Part shown: positions 1,456 to 34,215 of the stretch, in pieces
Layout of the letters: the number at the start of each line of letters is the position of its first letter
How positions within the stretch are numbered: position 1 is the stretch's first letter
Assembly (NCBI GenBank): GCA_016650215.1
Contig: JAENWF010000197.1
Span: 1-39,240, forward strand
Direction: 5' to 3'
Source of the DNA: Thermoanaerobaculia bacterium
GTDB lineage: Bacteria; Acidobacteriota; Thermoanaerobaculia; Gp7-AA8
Length of the DNA stretch: 39,240 nucleotides
Notes under the pieces: generated by a model
What the model was told of the DNA's origin: nothing
Seen by the model: only the letters and a program-made list of their open reading frames with translations
Databases searched by the model: none
Position numbers and translations under genes: made by a program

Positions 1456-1561
1456 AATCCTGAGCCGCGAAGACGGCGAAGGATCTTCTGAGAGCACGAG
1501 CGCGAATCGAGCCGCGACCACCGCTAGTGCTATCAGAAGATCCTTCGCTTCGCTCAGGATA
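1456..1561. repeat. Inverted pair of CCTGAGC/GAAGGATCTTCTGA repeats
   Basis: Positions 1456-1493 contain CCTGAGCCGCGAAGACGG followed by CGAAGGATCTTCTGA. Positions 1533-1561 contain the shorter reverse complement, so the two copies face each other across about 40 nt. The same element recurs at 3798, 15626, 15897 and, in diverged form, 19723 and 21206. The right-hand copy includes the TGA stop codon of dinB (1554-1556). This repeat pair fills the gap between the dehydrogenase start and the dinB stop; no gene is visible there. Confidence 0.8.
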
Positions 1562-3682: not shown

Positions 3683-3930
3683 GGGGGTGGGGAGGGGAGG
3701 CAATGCAAAATGCAAAATGCAAAATGCAAAAAGGGGGGACGGGAATGTTAAATGTTGAATGTTGAATGTTGAATTGGATGGCCGCGCGGCCAGCGCTGTC
3801 ATCCTGAGCTAAGCGAAGGATCCCCCGCGCTCAGATTTGCGCCAATCTCTTTGACGGTCGCCACAATGTGATTCCTTTCAACATTCAACACTTACAATTC
3901 CCGTCCCCCTTTTTGCATTTTGCATTCTCT
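3674..3930. repeat. Composite G-run/heptamer repeat element with inverted partner
   Basis: This occupies most of the 344-nt gap before the GGDEF-EAL gene. In order: four G tracts (3674-3697, G-quadruplex-like); four TGCAAAA units (3704-3731); a GGGGGGACGGGAA joint; one TGTTAAA and three TGTTGAA units (3746-3773); about 100 nt of other sequence; then a reversed, degenerate copy. That copy has two TTCAACA units (3877-3890), the complementary joint near 3898-3909, two TGCAAAA-type units in complement and a C-rich run. A CCTGAGC repeat lies in the middle. The first half matches the element after lnt at 17404-17503. No gene is visible. Confidence 0.85.
3798..3823 (+). repeat. Dispersed CCTGAGC...GAAGGATC repeat (short copy)
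   Basis: GTCATCCTGAGC followed by TAAGCGAAGGATCC. This is the core of the element seen at 1456, 15626 and 19723, here inside the central part of the heptamer-repeat composite. Confidence 0.7.
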
Positions 3931-4026
3931 TCCCCCTCCCACCCACGGCGAACGCTGTCGGTCAGGCGCCCTCTCCGACCGCGTTAAAGACGCGATACAC
4001 TGCGATCACACCCGAGTGTATATGCA

Positions 4027-9530: not shown

Positions 9531-9620
9531 CATTCACCATTCAACATTCAACATTTAACATTCCCGTCATCCCGAGGCAGAGAACGGGAATGTTAAATGT
9601 TGAATGTTGAATGGTGAATG
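9531..9620. repeat. Perfect 37-bp inverted repeat built of TGTTGAA heptamers
   Basis: Arms 9531-9567 and 9584-9620 are exact reverse complements over 37 bp with a 16-nt loop. Each arm is a run of heptamers (ATTCACC, ATTCAAC, ATTCAAC, ATTTAAC on the left) ending in the ATTCCCGT joint also seen at the other composite elements. It starts 4 nt after the trmB stop codon. The transcript would form a very stable stem, but no T run follows it. Confidence 0.93.
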
Positions 9621-12620: not shown

Positions 12621-13599
12621 GAAGAGTTACCGCGACGCGATTCGCGAAGCGATGATGGAAGAGATGGACCGCGACCCGAACGTTCTCATCATGGGGGAGG
12701 ACATCGGCGTCTACGAAGGTACGTTCCGCATCACCGCCGGCATGCTGAAAAAGTACGGCCCGCGGCGCGTGATCGATACGCCGATCGCTGAGGCTGGGAT
12801 GGTCGGTACGGCGGTCGGAATGGCGATGCTCGGACTGCGGCCGATCGTCGAGATGATGACGGTGAACTTCGCGATCGTCGCCGCCGATCAGATTCTGAAT
12901 CATGCGGCGAAGGTGCGTTACTTCTCCGGCGGACAGGTCGACGTGCCGCTCGTCATCCGTGGACCGCAGGGAGCGGGCGTGCAGCTTTCCGCCCAGCACT
13001 CTCAGACCTTCGAGTCGTTCTACGCTCATTTTCCCGGCATTCATGTCGTCACTCCGGGAACTCCCGCTGACGCGAAGGGGTTGCTGAAGACCGCGATCCG
13101 CGGCAAGGATCCGGTGATGTTTCTCGAGAGCGCCGCGCTCTACGGCATGAAGGGTGAAGTCCCCGACGATCCCGATTTCACGGTGCCGTTCGGCAAGTCG
13201 CGCGTCGCGCGCGAGGGGAGCGACGTCACGATCGTCTCCTTCAGCCGGATGATGCAGCTCTCGCTGACGGTCGCCGACAAGCTGTCGAAAGAGGAAGGGA
13301 TCGAGTGCGAAGTGATCGACCTCCGCACGCTCCGCCCCCTCGACATGGAGCCGGCATACGCGTCGGTGGCGAAGACGCATCGCGCGATCGTCGTTCAGGA
13401 GCAGTGGAAGCCGTTCGGCGCCGGCGCGGAGATCGCGGCGAGCATCACCGAGACGATGTTCGACGAGCTTGACGCCCCCGTGTTTCGCGTGACCGGCGAA
13501 GACGTCCCGATGCCGTACGCGCGCAACCTCGAACTGCTCGCCACGCCGCACGAAGAGCACATCGTGCGCGCGGTGAAGAGAGTGATGTACAGGAGCTGA
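12613..13599 (+). CDS. pdhB: Pyruvate/2-oxoacid dehydrogenase E1 component, beta subunit
   Basis: A 328-residue transketolase-fold subunit. SYRDAIREAMMEEMDRD and IMGEDIGVYEGTFRIT occupy the N-terminal part; RVIDTPIAEAGMVGTAVGMA carries the conserved glutamate that activates ThDP. The C-terminal domain has DLRTLRPLD and RVTGEDVPMPYARNLE. ATG 12613 is used because homology begins at AEKSYRDA. It lies inside the last codons of the alpha gene, so the two are translationally coupled, as expected for subunits of one heterotetramer. Confidence 0.94.
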   Translation: MAEKSYRDAIREAMMEEMDRDPNVLIMGEDIGVYEGTFRITAGMLKKYGPRRVIDTPIAEAGMVGTAVGMAMLGLRPIVEMMTVNFAIVAADQILNHAAKVRYFSGGQVDVPLVIRGPQGAGVQLSAQHSQTFESFYAHFPGIHVVTPGTPADAKGLLKTAIRGKDPVMFLESAALYGMKGEVPDDPDFTVPFGKSRVAREGSDVTIVSFSRMMQLSLTVADKLSKEEGIECEVIDLRTLRPLDMEPAYASVAKTHRAIVVQEQWKPFGAGAEIAASITETMFDELDAPVFRVTGEDVPMPYARNLELLATPHEEHIVRAVKRVMYRS

Positions 13600-15625: not shown

Positions 15626-15661
15626 CATCCTGAGCCGCGAAGACGGCGAAGGATCTTCTGA
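15626..15661 (+). repeat. Dispersed CCTGAGC...GAAGGATCTTCTGA repeat
   Basis: CATCCTGAGCCGCGAAGACG followed by GCGAAGGATCTTCTGA, nearly identical to 1456-1493. It begins 12 nt after the stop of the zinc-ribbon gene. Confidence 0.8.
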
Positions 15662-15704
15662 TCGCACTGGGGAGAACGAAGCCACTTTCATCCTGATGCA
15701 AAAG

Positions 15705-15807
15705 GGGACGAAAGCCCGCCGGCTGAAGCCGGCGCCACGTCACTCGCGAATGTTGCCACGAGCCATGCACGACGTGGCGCCGGCTTCAGCCGGCGGCTTT
15801 TCGTCCC
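15705..15807. repeat. Long GC-rich inverted repeat
   Basis: Arms 15705-15741 and 15771-15807 match over 35 of 37 positions around a 29-nt loop. The core GCCGGCTGAAGCCGGC is itself palindromic. The 255-nt gap between the zinc-ribbon gene and lnt holds this element and two CCTGAGC-type repeats; no gene is visible. It may be a non-autonomous palindromic repeat; no transposase lies nearby. Confidence 0.88.
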
Positions 15808-15896
15808 ATTGCTTGTCTTCAAGACTCAGAACCACGATGAAGGATGAGCTATCCTTTCGCCGCCCGGCATGTCGTCGAAACAATCCCCAGTTCGCA

Positions 15897-15925: not shown

Positions 15926-17434
15926 ATGAACCCTTCCCTCAAAATTCTCTTTGCGGTCATCTCCGGTGTCGCGTTTGCGCTCGCTTTTCCGGATGTCGCG
16001 GCAGGCTGGCTCGCCTTCATCGCCCTCGCGCCGCTCCTCATCGCGATCACCACCACGGAGCGGACCAGGCACGCGTTTCTCCTCGGCTGGCTCGCGCACA
16101 CGATCGCGTGGCTGATCATGGTTCCGTGGGTCATCCGTGTGATGTCGCATTACGGCGGACTCCCGTACGCGGCGGGGGTCGCGATCTTTGGTGCGATGGC
16201 CGCGTACCTCGGACTCTACGGCGGGCTCTTCGCGATCATCGTCCATCGAATCAGGCCGCGCAAAGACTTTGGCCGCTGGCTGCTCATCCCACTCGCCTGG
16301 GCCGCGGTCGAATATGTGCGAACGTATCTGCTCAGCGGCTTTCCGTGGAGCCTGATCGCGACCACAATCGTCGACTACACGTCTCTGATTCAGATCGATC
16401 GTTTCGCCGGACCGTATCTCGTCGGTGCGATGATCCTCCTGCCGTCGACGGTCATCGCGTGGATCGCAACGCAGAAGCCGCGCGGGTTTCCGCTGGTGCT
16501 CGTCATCGGCGTCCACACAGCGCTGGCACTCGTATGGTGGGGAACAGGCCTCGTGACCGCCAAACTCGTCGCACGCCCCACCGGCGCACGCCCGGCGGTC
16601 GCCGCACTTCTGCAGCCGAACATCTCGCAGGAGATGCGATGGGACGAGTCGAGCATGCTGACAATCTTCCGGCGGATGATGGCGATGACCGAAGAGGCGA
16701 TCGCAAACGGCGCGAGCGTCGTCATCTGGCCGGAATCGACGGTGCCGCTCTCCTACAACCGCACTGAGTTCTACCGCGACGCGATCGAGAGCATCTCGCT
16801 GCGGCACAACGTCGACATCATCCTCGGCTCGGTCGCAGAAGACTCTGAGAACGGGATGCGGCTCTGGAATGCCGCGTTTCTCGTCAGCAACGGCAGGACG
16901 ATCGGCCACTACGACAAGATCAAGCTCGTGCCGTTCGGCGAGTTCGTCCCGATGCGCAAGATGCTCTTCTTCGCGCAGAAACTCGTCCACGAAGTAGGCG
17001 AATTCTCGTTCGGCACGAACGACCGCCCGCTCGCAGGCAGGTTTCGCTACGGCCCCGCGATCTGCTACGAGATCGTCTTTCCGCAGATCACGAGAACGCA
17101 GATCCGCAACGGCGCGAACGTCCTCGTAACGATCACCAACGACGCCTGGTACGACGGAACGTCCGCGCCACGTCAGCATCTCAATCAGGCCCGCCTGCGA
17201 GCCGTCGAAGGGGACCGATACCTGCTCCGCGCCGGAACTACAGGAATCTCAGCATTCATCGACCCCAGCGGACGGATCCGAGAGTCGATCCCGATGGGAC
17301 GCGCCGGGATCATCTACGCGCGGTTTCAGGAGAAATCGACGGTTACCCCGTACGTGCGGTTTGGCGATTGGTTTGCCTGGGTGGCGATGGTTGCAGTGGG
17401 TGTGGGGTGGTGGAGGGGGCGGGGGCGGGGGTAA
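15926..17434 (+). CDS. lnt: Apolipoprotein N-acyltransferase
   Basis: A 502-residue inner-membrane enzyme that adds the third acyl chain to lipoproteins. Residues 1-210 contain several membrane segments. The nitrilase-like catalytic domain (about 225-470) has the triad E270 in VVIWPEST, K331 in HYDKIKLVPFGEF and C380 in PAICYEIVFP. A last membrane segment near 480-495 is followed by a Gly/Arg tail encoded by a G-run. ATG 15926 begins MNPSLKILF; codons upstream of it lie in a dispersed repeat. The gene marks the organism as a diderm with triacylated lipoproteins. Confidence 0.94.
   Translation: MNPSLKILFAVISGVAFALAFPDVAAGWLAFIALAPLLIAITTTERTRHAFLLGWLAHTIAWLIMVPWVIRVMSHYGGLPYAAGVAIFGAMAAYLGLYGGLFAIIVHRIRPRKDFGRWLLIPLAWAAVEYVRTYLLSGFPWSLIATTIVDYTSLIQIDRFAGPYLVGAMILLPSTVIAWIATQKPRGFPLVLVIGVHTALALVWWGTGLVTAKLVARPTGARPAVAALLQPNISQEMRWDESSMLTIFRRMMAMTEEAIANGASVVIWPESTVPLSYNRTEFYRDAIESISLRHNVDIILGSVAEDSENGMRLWNAAFLVSNGRTIGHYDKIKLVPFGEFVPMRKMLFFAQKLVHEVGEFSFGTNDRPLAGRFRYGPAICYEIVFPQITRTQIRNGANVLVTITNDAWYDGTSAPRQHLNQARLRAVEGDRYLLRAGTTGISAFIDPSGRIRESIPMGRAGIIYARFQEKSTVTPYVRFGDWFAWVAMVAVGVGWWRGRGRG
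17404..17431 (+). other. G-quadruplex-like G tracts at the end of lnt
   Basis: Four G tracts (GGGG, then three GGGGG) are separated by a 7-nt loop and two single C loops, in the coding strand, ending next to the TAA stop. The same type of G-run precedes heptamer repeats at 3674-3697. Confidence 0.6.
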
Positions 17435-17531
17435 TGCAGAATGCAAAATGCAAAATGCCAAAAGGGGGACGGGAATGTTGAATGTTGAATGTTGAATGGT
17501 GAAGATCGGTTTCAACATTCAACATTCAACA
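17435..17531. repeat. Composite heptamer repeat element after lnt
   Basis: Directly after the lnt stop: four TGCAAAA-type units (17436-17463, two exact), the AGGGGGACGGGAA joint, three exact TGTTGAA units (17476-17496), one TGGTGAA, a 7-nt GATCGGT, then three exact TTCAACA units (17511-17531). The TGTTGAA and TTCAACA blocks form a perfect 21-bp stem with a 14-nt loop. The order of parts matches the left half of the element at 3674-3773. Confidence 0.92.
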
Positions 17532-17563
17532 TTTCGGTCTCTAAAATCACAGCAAGGACGCTA

Positions 17564-18671
17564 ATGCCCACTTACGACATGAACCCCCGCATCGAATCCC
17601 TGAGATCGCGAATCGCCGACGTGCGGAGCTATCTTTGACGTAGCCGGCGCCCGAAAGGCGCTCGACGAGATCGAGCGCGAGATGTCGGTTCCCGGTTTCT
17701 GGGACAAGCCCGAGACGGCACAGGAAGTCGGACGGAAGCGGAGCCGCGTCGAGAAACGGATTCAGTCGGGCGAGTCGATCGACACCAAATACGAAGAGCT
17801 CGACGTGCTGCTCGAGCTCGACAAAGAGGGGGAGAACGTCGGAGGCGATATCGAGACGCTCGTCGAACAGCTCGAAGCCGAGGTCACACAGGTCGAGATG
17901 ACGATGAAGCTCGCCGGACCGCACGACGACCGCGACGCGATCCTCGCCATCCATCCCGGCGCCGGCGGCACCGAGTCGCAGGACTGGGCCGACATGCTCC
18001 TTCGCATGTATCTGCGATTCTGCGAGCGCCGCGGCTGGTCTACCGAGATGATCGACTACCAGGGCGGCGACGAAGCGGGGATCAAGAGCGCGACGGTGAT
18101 GGTGCGCGGCGAATACGCGTATGGCTACCTCAAGTCCGAGCACGGCGTGCACCGGCTCGTGCGCATTTCACCGTACGACGCGGCGAAGCGGAGGCACACC
18201 TCCTTCGCCTCGGTCTATATCTATCCCGACATCGATGAGGACATCGAGATCGAGATCAACGACAAGGATCTTCGTGTCGACACGTATCGCTCGTCCGGCG
18301 CAGGCGGCCAGCACGTCAACGTCACCGACTCGGCGATCCGCATCACTCACCTGCCGAGCGGCATCGTCGTGACGTGCCAGAACGAGCGCAGCCAGCATAA
18401 GAATCGCGCCACCGCGATGCGGCTGTTGAAGGCGCGTCTCTATCAGCTCGAGCTCGACAAGCGGAAGGAAGAGCAGTCGCAGATCGAAGGGGAGAAGAAG
18501 GAGATCGGCTTCGGCAGCCAGATCCGATCGTACGTGCTGCAGCCGTATCAGATGATCAAGGACATGCGTACCGGGCACGAGGTCGGCGATGTCCAGCGCA
18601 TCCTCGACGGGGACCTCGGCGAGTTCGTCGAGGCATATCTGGCCGACCGGGCCAGGAAGAGCGCGGATTGA
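17564..18671 (+). CDS. prfB: Peptide chain release factor 2 (programmed +1 frameshift)
   Basis: Zero frame runs from ATG 17564 for 24 codons (MPTYDMNPRIES...VRSYL) to an in-frame TGA at 17636-17638. A +1 shift at CTT TGA C continues as DVAGARKALDEIERE to the stop at 18671, giving 368 residues, normal for RF2. The catalytic GGQ is at 247-249 (SGAGGQHVNVTDS). The stop-codon-reading tripeptide is S-P-Y at 202-204 where E. coli RF2 has S-P-F. RF2 ends translation at TGA and TAA, and low RF2 favours the shift, giving autoregulation. The gene overlaps neither neighbour but lies 4 nt before the glycosyltransferase start. Confidence 0.95.
17624..17639 (+). promoter_or_regulatory. RF2 programmed frameshift site
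   Basis: CTT TGA C at 17633-17639 is the classical slippery Leu codon plus poorly terminated UGA. Upstream, CGGAGC lies at 17624-17629, three nt before the CTT, in place of the usual AGGGGG; only GGAG is left as a stimulatory Shine-Dalgarno. Confidence 0.9.
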
Positions 18672-18675
18672 CGTG

Positions 18676-20109
18676 ATGCGCGTCGCCATGCTCTCGCCGC
18701 TGCCGCCTGCGCGCACAGGCGTCGCGCATTACGCGTCGATGCTGCTTCCCGCGCTCCGGGAGAGACTCGAGATCGTCGAGAGCGGCGCCGATCGTTACAT
18801 CTATCAGCTCGGCAACAACCCGCATCACGAATTTGTCTACGAGGCAGCGATGATGACGCCGGGTGTCATCGTGCTGCACGACGTCGTGCTCCATCACCTC
18901 ATCGTCGAGATGACACTCGCGCGGGGAGATGTCGACGGTTATATCGACTCGCTTCGCGCGAGCCATGGGGAGGCGGGGGCGGCCTGGGCGCGCGGACGCG
19001 CCGCGGGACTGCACAGCGAGATGGGCAACTTTCTCCTGCCCGCTTCGGTCGAGATTGCGCGCCGGTCAACCGCCGTCATCGTGCACAACGAATGGGCGGC
19101 AAACGTCCTTCGCTCGTTCGGAGTCGCGACGCCGATTCATGTCGTGCCGCACCCGTATCTGCCCGAGGCGGTTGTGCATGATCGTGACGCTGTCCGCCGT
19201 CGCCTCGGCATCGCGCCACAAGCGCGCGTCGTCGGACTCTTCGGGTTTCTCACCTCGGCGAAGAGGGGAGAGATCGTCATCGAGGCGTTCCGGATCGCCC
19301 GCAAGCGCGACCCGAACCTCGTGCTGCTCATCGTTGGTGAGGCGGCGCCGGACATCGACATATCGAAGATCGCGGGGCCTGGCGTCATCACGACCGGATA
19401 CGTGGATGACCGGGAGTTCGGCGCCTATTACGCCGCTGCCGATCGTCTCGTGAACCTCCGCTACCCCTCGGCCGGCGAAACCTCGGGAACGCTCATCCGC
19501 GCCTTCGGCGCGGGGAAGCCGGTCGCGGTCAGCGACTATGCGCAGTTCGCCGAGTATCCCGATACCTGCGTCGTGAAGATTCCGTTCGGCGAAGGGGAGG
19601 TTGAGACGCTGGCGTCGTTCTTTACCCGCGAGCTTGACGAACGCTCGATCGCCGCCGCGCAGCGCGATTGGCTCGCGAAGAACGCGACAATCGAACAGAC
19701 GGTCGCAGGATACGTCTCCGCTGTCATCCTGAGCCGCGAAGACGCCCCCGCGGCTCAGGATGACCGAAGCGCAGGACTCCCGCTCTTTCCCAGCATCGAG
19801 CTCGTCGGAATTGCCCGCGAAGACGGACGCCTGCGCGTCACCGTCCGCAATACCGGCGAGACCACTCTCCGCGCCCGCGAATACGGCCAGCCGGCGTATC
19901 GCATCATCGCGAAGCAGTTCGTGAGCGGAGTCGAGATCGAGAATCGCTGGATCGGGCTCGACGGCGATCTTCGCGCCGGCGAAGCGGGGACCATCGCGAT
20001 CCCGGCTGCGGAGAATGCGGACCGCCTCGAGCTGCATCACGCGCTCCAGAGCATTCCGGTCGCCGGCTCCACTCCGTCCATTGTTGTGGAGCTGACCGGT
20101 GTTCGATGA
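18676..20109 (+). CDS. Glycosyltransferase family 4-like protein with C-terminal extension
   Basis: A 477-residue protein. Residues 1-350 look like a GT-B glycosyltransferase: MRVAMLSPLPPARTGVAHYA at the start, a donor-domain core VVGLFGFLTSAKRGEIVIEAF, and YPSAGETSGTLIRAFGAGKPV near residue 275, where the E-x7-E-type donor site is expected. Residues from about 367 form a separate beta-rich domain (VGIAREDGRLRVTVRNTGETTL). The joint is encoded by a 42-bp palindromic repeat (19723-19764). ATG 18676 follows the prfB stop by 4 nt. Its 3' end overlaps the NUDIX gene by 11 nt. Sugar and acceptor are unknown. Confidence 0.83.
   Translation: MRVAMLSPLPPARTGVAHYASMLLPALRERLEIVESGADRYIYQLGNNPHHEFVYEAAMMTPGVIVLHDVVLHHLIVEMTLARGDVDGYIDSLRASHGEAGAAWARGRAAGLHSEMGNFLLPASVEIARRSTAVIVHNEWAANVLRSFGVATPIHVVPHPYLPEAVVHDRDAVRRRLGIAPQARVVGLFGFLTSAKRGEIVIEAFRIARKRDPNLVLLIVGEAAPDIDISKIAGPGVITTGYVDDREFGAYYAAADRLVNLRYPSAGETSGTLIRAFGAGKPVAVSDYAQFAEYPDTCVVKIPFGEGEVETLASFFTRELDERSIAAAQRDWLAKNATIEQTVAGYVSAVILSREDAPAAQDDRSAGLPLFPSIELVGIAREDGRLRVTVRNTGETTLRAREYGQPAYRIIAKQFVSGVEIENRWIGLDGDLRAGEAGTIAIPAAENADRLELHHALQSIPVAGSTPSIVVELTGVR
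19723..19764. repeat. Palindromic CCTGAGC repeat inside the glycosyltransferase gene
   Basis: GTCATCCTGAGCCGCG (19723-19738) and CGCGGCTCAGGATGAC (19749-19764) are perfect 16-bp arms around AAGACGCCCC. The left arm and loop match the intergenic CCTGAGCCGCGAAGACGG repeats. It reads in frame, giving VILSREDAPAAQDD, and keeps the downstream frame open. Confidence 0.88.
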
Positions 20110-20671
20110 TGCGGCGCTCGACCGTCTGCGGGCGCTCCTCGCCAAACGCCCTGCGATCGAGATCGATGCCCCGGAATTTCGTCGCGCCGCCGTCCTTGTC
20201 CCGCTGATCCGCGGCGCAGACATCTGGTCGATTCTTTTCACCCGGCGCGCGGAGAACATGGCAGCTCACAGCGGCCAGATCGCTTTCCCGGGCGGCGCGG
20301 TCGAACCGGGTGAAGCGCTGACCGATGCGGCACTGCGCGAGGCGGAAGAGGAGGTCGGGATTCCGCGGCGCGGCGTCGAACTGATCGGGCGCCTTGACGA
20401 TCTCGTCACCAATAGCGGTTATCTGGTGGCTCCGTTTGCCGGCATCGTTCACGAACGGACGAGCTACGTGATGCAGGCGGGAGAGGTCGTCGAGGTCTTC
20501 GAGGTGCCGGTCGACGCGCTGCTGGACGCCGCGCAGCCGGAGGTCCGCTATGTTTCTTTCCGCGAGCGGAACTATCCTGCTTACTACTACATCCACCAGC
20601 ACTACGAGATCTGGGGACTCACCGGACGCATGCTCAAGTCGTTCCTCGACCTCGCATGGCAGAGCTTGTGA
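20099..20671 (+). CDS. NUDIX hydrolase, CoA pyrophosphatase-like
   Basis: A 190-residue NUDIX protein. The Nudix box is complete: G-x5-E-x7-REAEEEVGI within residues about 63-86. Just before it, MAAHSGQIAFPGGAVE matches the extended motif of the CoA-diphosphatase (NudL/YeaB) group, which hydrolyses CoA to 4'-phosphopantetheine and 3',5'-ADP. The start is GTG 20099, which overlaps the end of the glycosyltransferase gene by 11 nt and implies coupling. The exact substrate is inferred from motif similarity only. Confidence 0.88.
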   Translation: MFDDAALDRLRALLAKRPAIEIDAPEFRRAAVLVPLIRGADIWSILFTRRAENMAAHSGQIAFPGGAVEPGEALTDAALREAEEEVGIPRRGVELIGRLDDLVTNSGYLVAPFAGIVHERTSYVMQAGEVVEVFEVPVDALLDAAQPEVRYVSFRERNYPAYYYIHQHYEIWGLTGRMLKSFLDLAWQSL

Positions 20672-20710: not shown

Positions 20711-21205
20711 ATGGCTGCATCGAAGAAAACAGGTTCCACGACATCGGGGCGCGTAACGCTGGCGGAAGAAGATCGCCGCTATCTGACCGAGACCCTCGAA
20801 GGAGCAAAAGCGAAGATCGGCAGTGTCGCGGACAGCGTGAGTGAGTCGGCGCTCTTCGAGGCGCTCGAGCGCTTCGGACTCACGAGCGAGCGCGTCGAGC
20901 GTCTGCGCGGCGCCTTCGACGACCTCGACGTCAAGGAGTCGGTCGAGAAGGCGTCGGAGTATCTCTCCGAGCAGATCAGCAATGCTCGCGACTACGCGAA
21001 GGACAACCCGAGGAAGGTGATCGGCGGCGCAGCGGGCGTGCTCGTCGGCGCTTCGCTGCTCGCAATCGCGTTGCGGAAGGCCAGCAACGAGAAGAAGAAA
21101 AAGCGTTCGGCGGCCGCGTCCAGCGCGGCTGCTTCGACGAAGTCAGCGGCCTCGAAAAAGTCCGCGTCGAAGTCCCCTGCTAAGAAGAGCTCCAAGAAGC
21201 GCTAG
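20711..21205 (+). CDS. DUF883/ElaB-like membrane protein with histone-H1-like Lys/Ala tail
   Basis: A 164-residue protein. Residues about 15-95 are charged and helical, probably coiled coil. Residues 98-120 (DNPRKVIGGAAGVLVGASLL) look like the C-terminal membrane anchor of DUF883/ElaB-type proteins, which bind stationary-phase ribosomes or stress membranes in E. coli. Unlike those, the protein continues for about 40 residues of Lys, Ala and Ser (KSASKSPAKKSSKKR), like bacterial histone-H1-like tails. A strong Shine-Dalgarno (AAAAGGAG) precedes ATG 20711, suggesting abundance. Function is unknown; the tail could bind nucleic acid or acidic lipid (inference). Confidence 0.75.
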   Translation: MAASKKTGSTTSGRVTLAEEDRRYLTETLEGAKAKIGSVADSVSESALFEALERFGLTSERVERLRGAFDDLDVKESVEKASEYLSEQISNARDYAKDNPRKVIGGAAGVLVGASLLAIALRKASNEKKKKRSAAASSAAASTKSAASKKSASKSPAKKSSKKR

Positions 21206-21288
21206 GTCATTCCGAGCCGCGAAGACGGGGAGGAATCTGGGTGGAGGGAGTTCCCCCGTCCGGATTCCTCGCTTTGGCTCGGAATGAC
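21206..21288. repeat. Inverted repeat between convergent genes
   Basis: GTCATTCCGAGCC...GAGGAATC (21206-21237) and GATTCCTC...GGCTCGGAATGAC (21263-21288) pair with GTCATTCCGAGCC and GAGGAATC matching exactly. The left arm contains GCCGCGAAGACGG, as in the CCTGAGC repeats, so this is a diverged member. It fills the whole gap: it abuts the stop at 21205 and ends 1 nt before the opposing stop at 21290, and may serve as a bidirectional terminator. Confidence 0.85.
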
Positions 21289-30530: not shown

Positions 30531-30592
30531 GGGTCAGGTCTTGATTTTTGCTTTTTGGAGACGGCGAAAGAGCAAAAATCAAGACCTGACCC
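30531..30592. repeat. GGGTCAGGTC hairpin repeat, copy 1
   Basis: Arms 30531-30552 and 30571-30592 are exact reverse complements (22 bp); the loop holds TTTGGAGAC. It separates the convergent anti-sigma and kdsC-like genes and abuts the anti-sigma stop. Other copies are at 34006 and 34149. Confidence 0.92.
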
Positions 30593-30596
30593 CGAA

Positions 30597-33417: not shown

Positions 33418-34020
33418 ATGACCGCATTTGACGCGCACCTCACGGCGCTCTTCGCCTGCCGCGCCTGCCCCAACGTCCTCGGCGAGCCGGTCACCGGACC
33501 TGTGCGCGACGCGCGGATCATGTTGATCGGTCAGGCGCCCGGACCGCGCGAGGTCGTCGACAAGCGGCCCTTCGCCTTCACGGCGGGGACGCGGATGTTC
33601 GCGTGGTTTCGTGATGCTCTCGGGATCTCCGAAGACGAGTTTCGAAGGCGTGTCTATATCGCCGCTGTGATTCGATGCTTCCCGGGGCGTGACGAGAAGA
33701 GTGGCGGGGACCGCGTCCCTTCTGTTGCGGAGATCGCAAATTGTTCCGGGCACCTCGATCGCGAGATCGTGATCCTGCGTCCGTCACTCGTGATCGCGGT
33801 CGGGACTCTGGCCGCCGCGCAGATCCTGGGCGTTTCGCAATTGAAGGACATCGTCGGCGTGGTGCATCGGGCGACCCGCGCCGGTATCACGTTCGATGCG
33901 GTCGTCCTTCCACATCCGTCGGGCCGTTCAACATGGACGAACAAGAAAGAGAACGCGGCGTTGCTGGCGAAGTCGCTCGAGTTGATCAAAGAGAGATGGC
34001 ACTTGGGGGTCAGGTCTTGA
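33418..34020 (+). CDS. Uracil-DNA glycosylase superfamily protein
   Basis: A 200-residue protein. MLIGQAPGPREV (about 35-46) is the catalytic-loop motif and VLPHPSGRSTW (about 161-171) is the DNA-binding motif 2 of family 4-like enzymes. Cysteines at CRAC (14-17), in IRCFPG and in NCSGH are placed as in the iron-sulphur-containing family 4/5 enzymes, suggesting a 4Fe-4S cluster. It should excise uracil, and perhaps other deaminated bases, from DNA. The last four codons (GVRS) and the TGA stop come from a palindromic repeat that starts at 34006, so the ancestral C-terminus was probably different. Confidence 0.86.
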   Translation: MTAFDAHLTALFACRACPNVLGEPVTGPVRDARIMLIGQAPGPREVVDKRPFAFTAGTRMFAWFRDALGISEDEFRRRVYIAAVIRCFPGRDEKSGGDRVPSVAEIANCSGHLDREIVILRPSLVIAVGTLAAAQILGVSQLKDIVGVVHRATRAGITFDAVVLPHPSGRSTWTNKKENAALLAKSLELIKERWHLGVRS

Positions 34021-34068
34021 TTTTTGCGTTTGGAGACTGTGAAAGAGCAAAAAACAAGACCTGACCCC
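34006..34068. repeat. GGGGTCAGGTC hairpin repeat, copy 2
   Basis: Arms 34006-34027 and 34047-34068 match 21 of 22 bp around a loop with TTTGGAGAC. The left arm encodes the end and stop codon of the uracil-DNA glycosylase gene. Confidence 0.9.
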
Positions 34069-34148
34069 GACTCTGAGTAGATATTTCTGCCTTCGACATT
34101 CCGTTCATAGCCGCTTTTTTCCACAGGGTGTGGAGCGCTAGAGACAGC

Positions 34149-34211
34149 GGGGTCAGGTCTTGATTTTTGCTTTTGGAGACGGTCAAAAAGCAAAAATCAA
34201 GACCTGACCCC
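34149..34211. repeat. GGGGTCAGGTC hairpin repeat, copy 3
   Basis: Arms 34149-34174 and 34186-34211 are exact over 26 bp with an 11-nt loop starting GGAGAC. It lies 80 nt from copy 2 in the same orientation and 4 nt past the stop of the minus-strand TauE/SafE gene. Between copies 2 and 3 there is no gene, only a short palindrome TTCCACAGGGTGTGGA. Confidence 0.92.
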
Positions 34212-34215
34212 GAGG

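Follow-up and report, generated by a model that had tools for sequence, protein, structure and literature searches.

Introduction

How does a perfect palindrome come to be read in frame within a conserved gene, at the joint between two protein domains? This question is raised by a 39,240-nt stretch of DNA from a Thermoanaerobaculia bacterium (GenBank GCA_016650215.1, contig JAENWF010000197.1, positions 1 to 39,240; hereafter the window), in which a glycosyltransferase gene contains such a palindrome. A sequence-only reading of the window had offered two answers, namely that a dispersed repeat was inserted in an inter-domain linker, or that the repeat joined two once-separate genes.

REP, BIME and REPIN elements are hairpin units that occur as inverted pairs and at high copy number, and that are mobilised by RAYT transposases. 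Palindromic elements of Rickettsia were reportedly the subject of work by Ogata and colleagues in 2000 and 2002.

In the accessible parts of three papers the Rickettsia elements appear as palindromic repeats lying in frame in genes for conserved proteins (PMC2229807, PMC10969869, PMC3733652), and two of the three give lengths of 105–146 or about 150 bp. The portions available of the study by Di Nocera and colleagues (2013, PMC3733652) count RPE-4 and RPE-6 among the CGTC REPs, which are defined by a terminal CGTC, often TGTC, a stem of 8–9 bp starting with AT and a loop of 4–5 nt, and which occur mostly as HH pairs. The same portions describe intragenic GTAG and CGTC REPs as short palindromic units, often in inverted pairs, that are mostly intergenic and in some cases in frame; their targets include DnaE2 and a DNA ligase, flexible linkers or loops are considered as their sites, and recB of two Xanthomonas species is said to carry different REPs at about the same position. 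Acidobacteria are mentioned there once, for tyrosine transposases, and Koribacter for terminal inverted repeats. The RepRanger paper gives REP counts for three Acidobacteriota, and the words intragenic, in-frame and linker are absent from its accessible text (PMC12306157).

Results

A palindrome read in frame between two domains of a glycosyltransferase

The 42 bp at 19723–19764 read GTCATCCTGAGCCGCG-AAGACGCCCC-CGCGGCTCAGGATGAC, that is, two perfect 16-bp arms flanking a 10-nt loop. They form codons 350–363 of a 477-residue glycosyltransferase, whose reading frame extends from an ATG at 18676 to a stop codon ending at 20109 (Table 1), and encode the peptide VILSREDAPAAQDD; sequence and reading frame bear out what had been claimed for the palindrome beforehand. 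On each strand, one of the three frames through the segment is open. Its RNA is predicted to fold at −32.1 kcal/mol (z −8.2), and none of 200 shuffled sequences folded as well.

The sequence-only reading expected structure prediction to place the repeat in a loop. In the predicted model, which is poor (mean pLDDT 60.8, pTM 0.49, 4 sequences), residues 350–363 span the end of a helix (343–351) and the coil before the first strand of the beta part (374), all within a low-confidence stretch (340–371). MshA, glycogen phosphorylase, WaaG and BshA were among the top Foldseek matches, in a fold search that is correspondingly loose.

Table 1. Features of the window around and related to the in-frame palindrome
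Feature	Position	Strand	Basis
Glycosyltransferase gene, GT-B type, 477 aa	18676..20109	+	ORF; Pfam Glyco_trans_1_4 1.1e-9
Glycosyl transferases group 1 domain match, residues 184-295	19225..19560	+	Pfam
Inter-domain linker, 22 residues from GY to PLF	19714..19779	+	Orthologue alignment and linker table
Shortened family A repeat, very probably captured, encoding VILSREDAPAAQDD, residues 350-363	19723..19764	+	Palindrome, family matches, RNA fold
Palindrome left arm, 16 bp	19723..19738	+	
Palindrome right arm, 16 bp, perfect complement of left	19749..19764	+	
C-terminal beta-rich domain, residues about 374-472	19795..20091	+	Predicted model; no Pfam match alone at E 0.1
prfB, upstream neighbour of glycosyltransferase	17682-18671		Pfam PCRF/RF-1
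NUDIX gene, downstream neighbour of glycosyltransferase	20099-20671		Pfam NUDIX
Family A copy, left arm	1456..1475	+	
Family A copy, left arm	15626..15645	+	
Family A copy, CATTCCGAG subfamily, directly 3' of stop of ORF 20711-21205	21208..21227	+	

The palindrome belongs to a dispersed repeat family

The palindrome matches, at 20 of 20 bases, the arm of a dispersed repeat that we call family A. With up to three mismatches, the arm CATCCTGAGCCGCGAAGACG is found at 82 places in the whole genome (G000, 3.2 Mb), against one for the reversed-pattern control, and the partner arm CATCCTGAGCGAAGCGAAGG at 285 places, against none; these counts agree with the earlier assignment of the palindrome to an intergenic family. 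In the window, CCTGAGCCGCGAAGACG occurs eight times at the same tolerance, where 0.51 occurrences are expected and 100 shuffles gave at most two. One of the eight is the second arm of the palindrome itself, and those at 13488, 23491 and 27549 were judged by eye to be chance matches; the last of these lies in coding sequence, has three mismatches and no second arm, and was counted among the tested clusters described below.

Our census of family A comprised 99 clusters, of which 14 were dropped for short flanks and 85 tested, and its loci cover 79 of the 82 first-arm places and 85 of the 285 second-arm places. Seeds were present on both strands in 59 of the 99 clusters. By eye, many copies are inverted pairs of about 80–110 bp whose cores are of several types, including CCCCCGC; their units read ATCCT...AGGAT, with internal GA/GA mismatches and a loop length near 3 or 6 nt. 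A start in CGTC or TGTC was seen in 21 of 59 left-type and 30 of 75 right-type units, and the copy in the gene starts with TGTC. This copy keeps the outer arms and the CCCCCGC core while the rest is absent, so that it reads as an internally shortened pair; a form of comparable shortness (L092) lies, as judged by eye, just after an apparent gene stop codon.

An origin of the palindrome in place, by chance or by template switching, would draw on the perfection of its 16-bp arms, as many dispersed copies have two different arms, and this perfection could reflect local palindrome correction. We consider such an origin very unlikely in view of the full match to a family arm, of the GTC that precedes the palindrome and the CCCCCGC core, both of which are present in other family A copies, and of the rarity of long arms in resampled sequence: five Markov resamples of the window held 0, 2, 0, 0 and 0 inverted repeats with arms of at least 12 bp. 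Template switching may have perfected the arms after a family A copy had arrived.

In-frame copies are rare in G000: family A was found in frame within a recognised gene in two of the 85 tested clusters, the glycosyltransferase and mtnA. In mtnA (L103, 335–1369) the in-frame segment is a partial arm which, by eye, differs from the CATTCCGAG subfamily at one of 23 bases. In an alignment with 15 relatives, from which G006 dropped out, the loop that holds it has 27 residues by one count, compared with 16–21 in 13 relatives and 29 in two (G002 and G004), and because of these two the length alone does not prove a capture in mtnA. The mtnA match of G005 (L254) has one in-frame TAG.

The linker in related genomes

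We searched 100 genomes, the own genome included, for the glycosyltransferase, and 97 gave some match. Close orthologues came from the same family (f1), with one from the same order only. The linker, taken from GY to PLF, could be read in 18 genomes, all of them, like every genome compared, draft assemblies: the own genome, 16 others of f1, and one of another family (G018). The remaining f1 genome searched, G012, had a weak best match (7.5e-8).

In each of the 18 genomes the linker leads into the C-terminal domain. Glycosyltransferase domain, linker and C-terminal domain lie together on a single contig in 16 of them, including G006, where the orthologue (L046) has a frameshift in its N-terminal half and may be decaying, a pseudogene, or misassembled. 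In the other two, G005 and G009, the gene is cut by the end of the contig, and the C-terminal domain follows a repeat-free linker. Among class-level homologues, the blastp alignment of the window protein extends into the C-terminal domain, to residue 441 or beyond, in 5 of 13. These results bear on the proposal that the repeat marks the fusion of two genes, one for the glycosyltransferase and another for the beta domain alone. The repeat does lie at the domain border, and most tested copies of the family lie outside genes, but the two domains share one gene on one contig in 16 genomes, 11 of which have no detected repeat in the linker, and they are also associated across the repeat-free linkers of G005 and G009 and in those homologues whose alignment reaches the far domain. 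The gene-joining proposal thus fails, and we give it practically no probability.

The family A repeat is absent from the linkers of all 17 readable relatives. Over the 18 genomes the linker ranges from 11 to 36 residues, and its middle is not conserved; conservation of the linker residues in repeat-free orthologues, which would have spoken against insertion, is therefore not seen. Together with the coil in the (poor) predicted model, the 17 relatives without the repeat and the variable middle support the proposal that a repeat entered an existing linker.

A simple insertion of 14 residues does not describe the event. The linker has 22 residues in the own genome against a median of 19 for the 13 linkers without a detected repeat, and removal of the repeat would leave 8, fewer than the shortest linker observed. 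The five linkers in which a repeat was detected (see below) measure 22, 21, 25, 22 and 36 residues (median 22; Mann–Whitney p 0.025 against the repeat-free ones). As the net gain is only about three residues and, except in G008, does not reach the repeat's own length, the arrival of the repeat was probably accompanied or followed by a loss of native linker codons. The search gave no repeat-free genome that is very closely related: G011, which comes nearest at 63% protein identity, has a different repeat in its linker. Neither a clean empty site nor a target-site duplication was therefore observed, and the repeat-free relatives are too distant for a duplication to be read. Of the sequence-only reading, insertion into a linker is supported and gene joining falls. 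Three points had escaped it: the copy is a pair in shortened form, the linker gained fewer than 14 residues, and different repeats occupy this site in other genomes.

Four unrelated repeats in the same linker

Dispersed repeats of four further families, mutually unrelated in sequence, lie in the same linker in other genomes: B in G014, C in G006, D in G011 and E in G008, so that 5 of 18 linkers hold a detected repeat. Family B is represented by TGTAGCGGCGGCCTTCAGGCCGCCGTCGGCGGGCTAAAGCCCGCCGCTACA, a GTAG-ended inverted pair that starts at the same codon as the window repeat and over 51 bp shows no difference from copies in L213, L216 and L217; its seed has 87 places in G014 (control 1). The family C copy is a double hairpin with 40 seed places in G006 (control 0), and a copy of the same layout lies outside any open frame in L182. 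Family D consists of four units of the heptamer GAAGGTC, which has 154 places in G011 (control 0), none in G000, G005, G014 or G006, one in G008 and two in G009. Family E is a 46-bp segment that came from a screen of 14 linkers with matches listed to E of about 3e-6, in which only the G008 linker had further places; among the matches listed there are at least 36 further places in G008, in a search run without a reversed control, and others in G016, G013 and G003. Weaker repeats, below the limit of this list, may be present in the other 13 linkers.

Filled and repeat-free linkers occur within genera. B is absent from the linker of G005, though G005 and G014 share a genus, and E is absent from the linker of G016, which belongs to the same genus as G008, although it is present in the G016 genome. 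In a tree of the protein without its linker (17 rows, G005 left out), the five repeat-bearers stand on separate branches, and G000 is the sister of G011. The differences among the five repeats lead us to regard them as separate events. When the seeds of all five families were run over 17 orthologous loci (68.9 kb), they were found only in the glycosyltransferase linkers and in the window copy at 21208, a result that checks only whether the families are common nearby, as the B–E seeds were derived from or matched to those linkers. In the linkers of G011 and G008, a scan for inverted repeats detected no arms of at least 7 bp.

The recurrence also bears on the quality of the assembly. The own genome is a draft of 247 contigs, and dispersed repeats can cause misjoins; on either side of the palindrome, however, lies half of one conserved protein, read in a common frame, and events of this type are seen in the same linker of four other genomes. 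An assembly artefact is therefore extremely improbable.

The window holds other repeats as well. GTTGAAT-type heptamer arrays, similar in style to family D of G011, form inverted repeats at 3730–3940, 9531–9620 and 17405–17540, one of them with perfect arms of 37 bp. A hairpin repeat with GGGTCAGGTCTTGATTTTTGC has three copies (30531–30595, 34006–34070 and 34149–34213), and an inverted repeat with 40-bp arms at 15702–15810 contains GCCGGCTGAAGCCGGCGCCACGTC; parts of this inverted repeat are found in L070, L080 and L101 of the same genome.

In-frame copies of families B and C in other genes

For family B in G014, stretches covering 64 of the 87 places, those closest to the seed first, gave 41 clusters, of which 2 were dropped and 39 tested. 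A copy was called coding on an open frame, a codon score trained on loci of G000 and recognition of the gene by eye, followed by Pfam and comparison with relatives. Twelve of the 39 tested copies are in frame, in 11 genes: those for the glycosyltransferase, LigD, a DUF5916 protein, an MFS transporter, an Fe-S/CCG protein, an Alg9-like transferase, a DnaE-type polymerase, ArgH, a BrkB-family protein, an ornithine cyclodeaminase-like protein and ClpC. The DnaE-type polymerase gene (L226, 153–1379) holds two separate pieces. All 10 of the B-bearing reading frames besides the glycosyltransferase have a Pfam match, and codon scores of the flanks were low in some accepted cases (LigD 0.09/0.03, the Alg9-like transferase 0.26/−0.04, the second DnaE piece 0.21/−0.16). 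Open frames in L207, L216, L231, L233, L234 and L235 were not accepted as coding. Net gains in G014 are often below the 17–18 residues that the copies encode, by eye about 15 in DnaE and about 9 in ArgH. At the other B sites, the proteins of G005 are 41–86% identical to those of G014, in a comparison of proteins only.

In the ClpC, BrkB and MFS genes a B copy occurs at the same site in G006 (L271, L279 and L276); measured against whichever of two 23-base seeds fits better, the three copies have 1, 1 and 3 mismatches. In the null for these matches, low values were taken as windows overlapping the copy itself. The copies of the two genomes have the same orientation in ClpC and opposite orientations in BrkB and MFS, for which two arrivals at each of the latter sites is the simplest explanation. 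Coding B copies are 52 or 49 bp long in 8 of 11 measured cases, whereas other copies are 51 bp long in 15 of 20. A length of 1 modulo 3 is accordingly seen in 8 of 11 coding but 5 of 20 other copies (Fisher p 0.02, with groups set after the genes had been seen), and this difference fits a filter on the reading frame.

For family C in G006, 30 of the 40 places were fetched, giving 26 clusters, of which one was dropped and 25 tested. Seven of the 25 tested copies are coding with Pfam or orthology support, in genes for the glycosyltransferase, a DPP IV-like peptidase, LpxB, a beta-lactamase-family protein, an aromatic amino acid lyase, a protein with two GNAT stretches and an F5/8-type protein. 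The number could be up to 10 with three possible coding copies in two reading frames (L300 and L303) that have no Pfam match. Open frames in L290, L292, L298, L305, L308, L315 and L317 were not accepted as coding.

The recurrence of repeats could be explained if the hairpin were kept for a function, either in the mRNA, by pausing ribosomes at the domain border or protecting against decay, or in the DNA as a site for a protein. The predicted fold of the palindrome is strong, five unrelated repeats share one linker, and in several other genes copies lie near domain ends or between domains. On the other hand, 13 of 18 linkers have no detected repeat, D is a heptamer array, the G011 and G008 linkers lack arms of any length that the scan would detect, and tolerance of the linker explains the same pattern. 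We therefore regard a function of the hairpin as distinctly unlikely.

Discussion

We consider it very likely that a shortened, REP-like copy of family A landed in the flexible linker of the glycosyltransferase, where it was tolerated and replaced part of the linker, and that this linker is a recurrent landing place; across the genomes compared, it seems to have received repeated DNA again and again. In this process, dispersed repeats would land widely, and most landings within genes would break the frame or the fold and be lost. A copy in a disordered joint could be tolerated, and stay, if it can be read through without a stop codon and leaves the downstream frame unshifted; this would hold for the family A copy in the glycosyltransferase, which has one open frame and a net change that causes no frameshift. 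Its arrival may have been an insertion accompanied by the loss of flanking codons, or an event that replaced them; native linker codons would have been trimmed away, such that the repeat now makes up most of the linker. We infer that the captured repeat is neutral or nearly so. Insertion may in addition prefer such sites, which would give a pattern like that expected from tolerance.

A further reading is that some inter-domain linkers of this lineage are maintained by the turnover of repeats, in which unrelated, mostly hairpin-forming repeats time and again overwrite native codons at one joint and provide a standing supply of linker peptides. This would call for insertion that is drawn to such sites, or for a hairpin at a domain border that is useful in translation, and we think it rather unlikely.

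Intragenic palindromic repeats as such are already known from REPs and Rickettsia palindromic elements; the surprising part is the recurrence of five families at one linker. The palindrome is an intragenic REP-like repeat, that is, a dispersed, high-copy and mostly extragenic unit with an in-frame copy that is absent in relatives. Family A resembles REP, BIME and REPIN elements in its inverted pairs, high copy number and hairpin units. Some of its units begin with TGTC or CGTC followed by AT, which may point to the CGTC REPs, and with both-strand seeds in more than half of its clusters it shows the HH-pair arrangement of that class. Family B of G014, with TGTAGCGGCGG...CCGCCGCTACA, a GTAG end, inverted pairs and its 87 places, is a GTAG REP by its features. 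No gene of the RAYT type flanked by the same repeat was found for family A: the genome has two Y1_Tnp genes, and no A, B or C seed (up to 4 mismatches) lies within their 1.5-kb flanks. As the genome is 88% complete, another such gene may be absent from the assembly.

As with the intragenic REPs described in the available portions of PMC3733652, G014 has in-frame copies in a DnaE-type polymerase and a LigD-type protein. Unlike in those, five unrelated repeats, one of them a heptamer array, are found in one linker, and 12 of 39 tested B copies in G014 are coding. The likeness to Rickettsia palindromic elements, as these appear in the text accessible to us, lies in palindromes in frame in conserved genes and in several families per lineage; the host lineage differs, the sequence probably does so too, and the copies here are only about 42–55 bp long. 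In the accessible portions of the open-access literature we found no linker with several unrelated repeats beyond the remark on recB, and no description of such an in-frame capture in Acidobacteriota.

The glycosyltransferase offers a case in which it can be traced across genera what becomes of repeats after they enter coding DNA: its linker has five different repeats, is filled in one member and repeat-free in another of each of two genera, and for the most part keeps a length close to 20 residues. As a sizeable share of the tested B and C copies is coding in two acidobacterial relatives, in genes that include those for ArgH, ClpC, a DnaE-type polymerase and LpxB, our results suggest that palindromes in coding sequence are no special trait of reduced intracellular genomes. 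They also make it testable whether insertion prefers linkers or selection spares it there, and whether the peptides or mRNA hairpins that result have any role.
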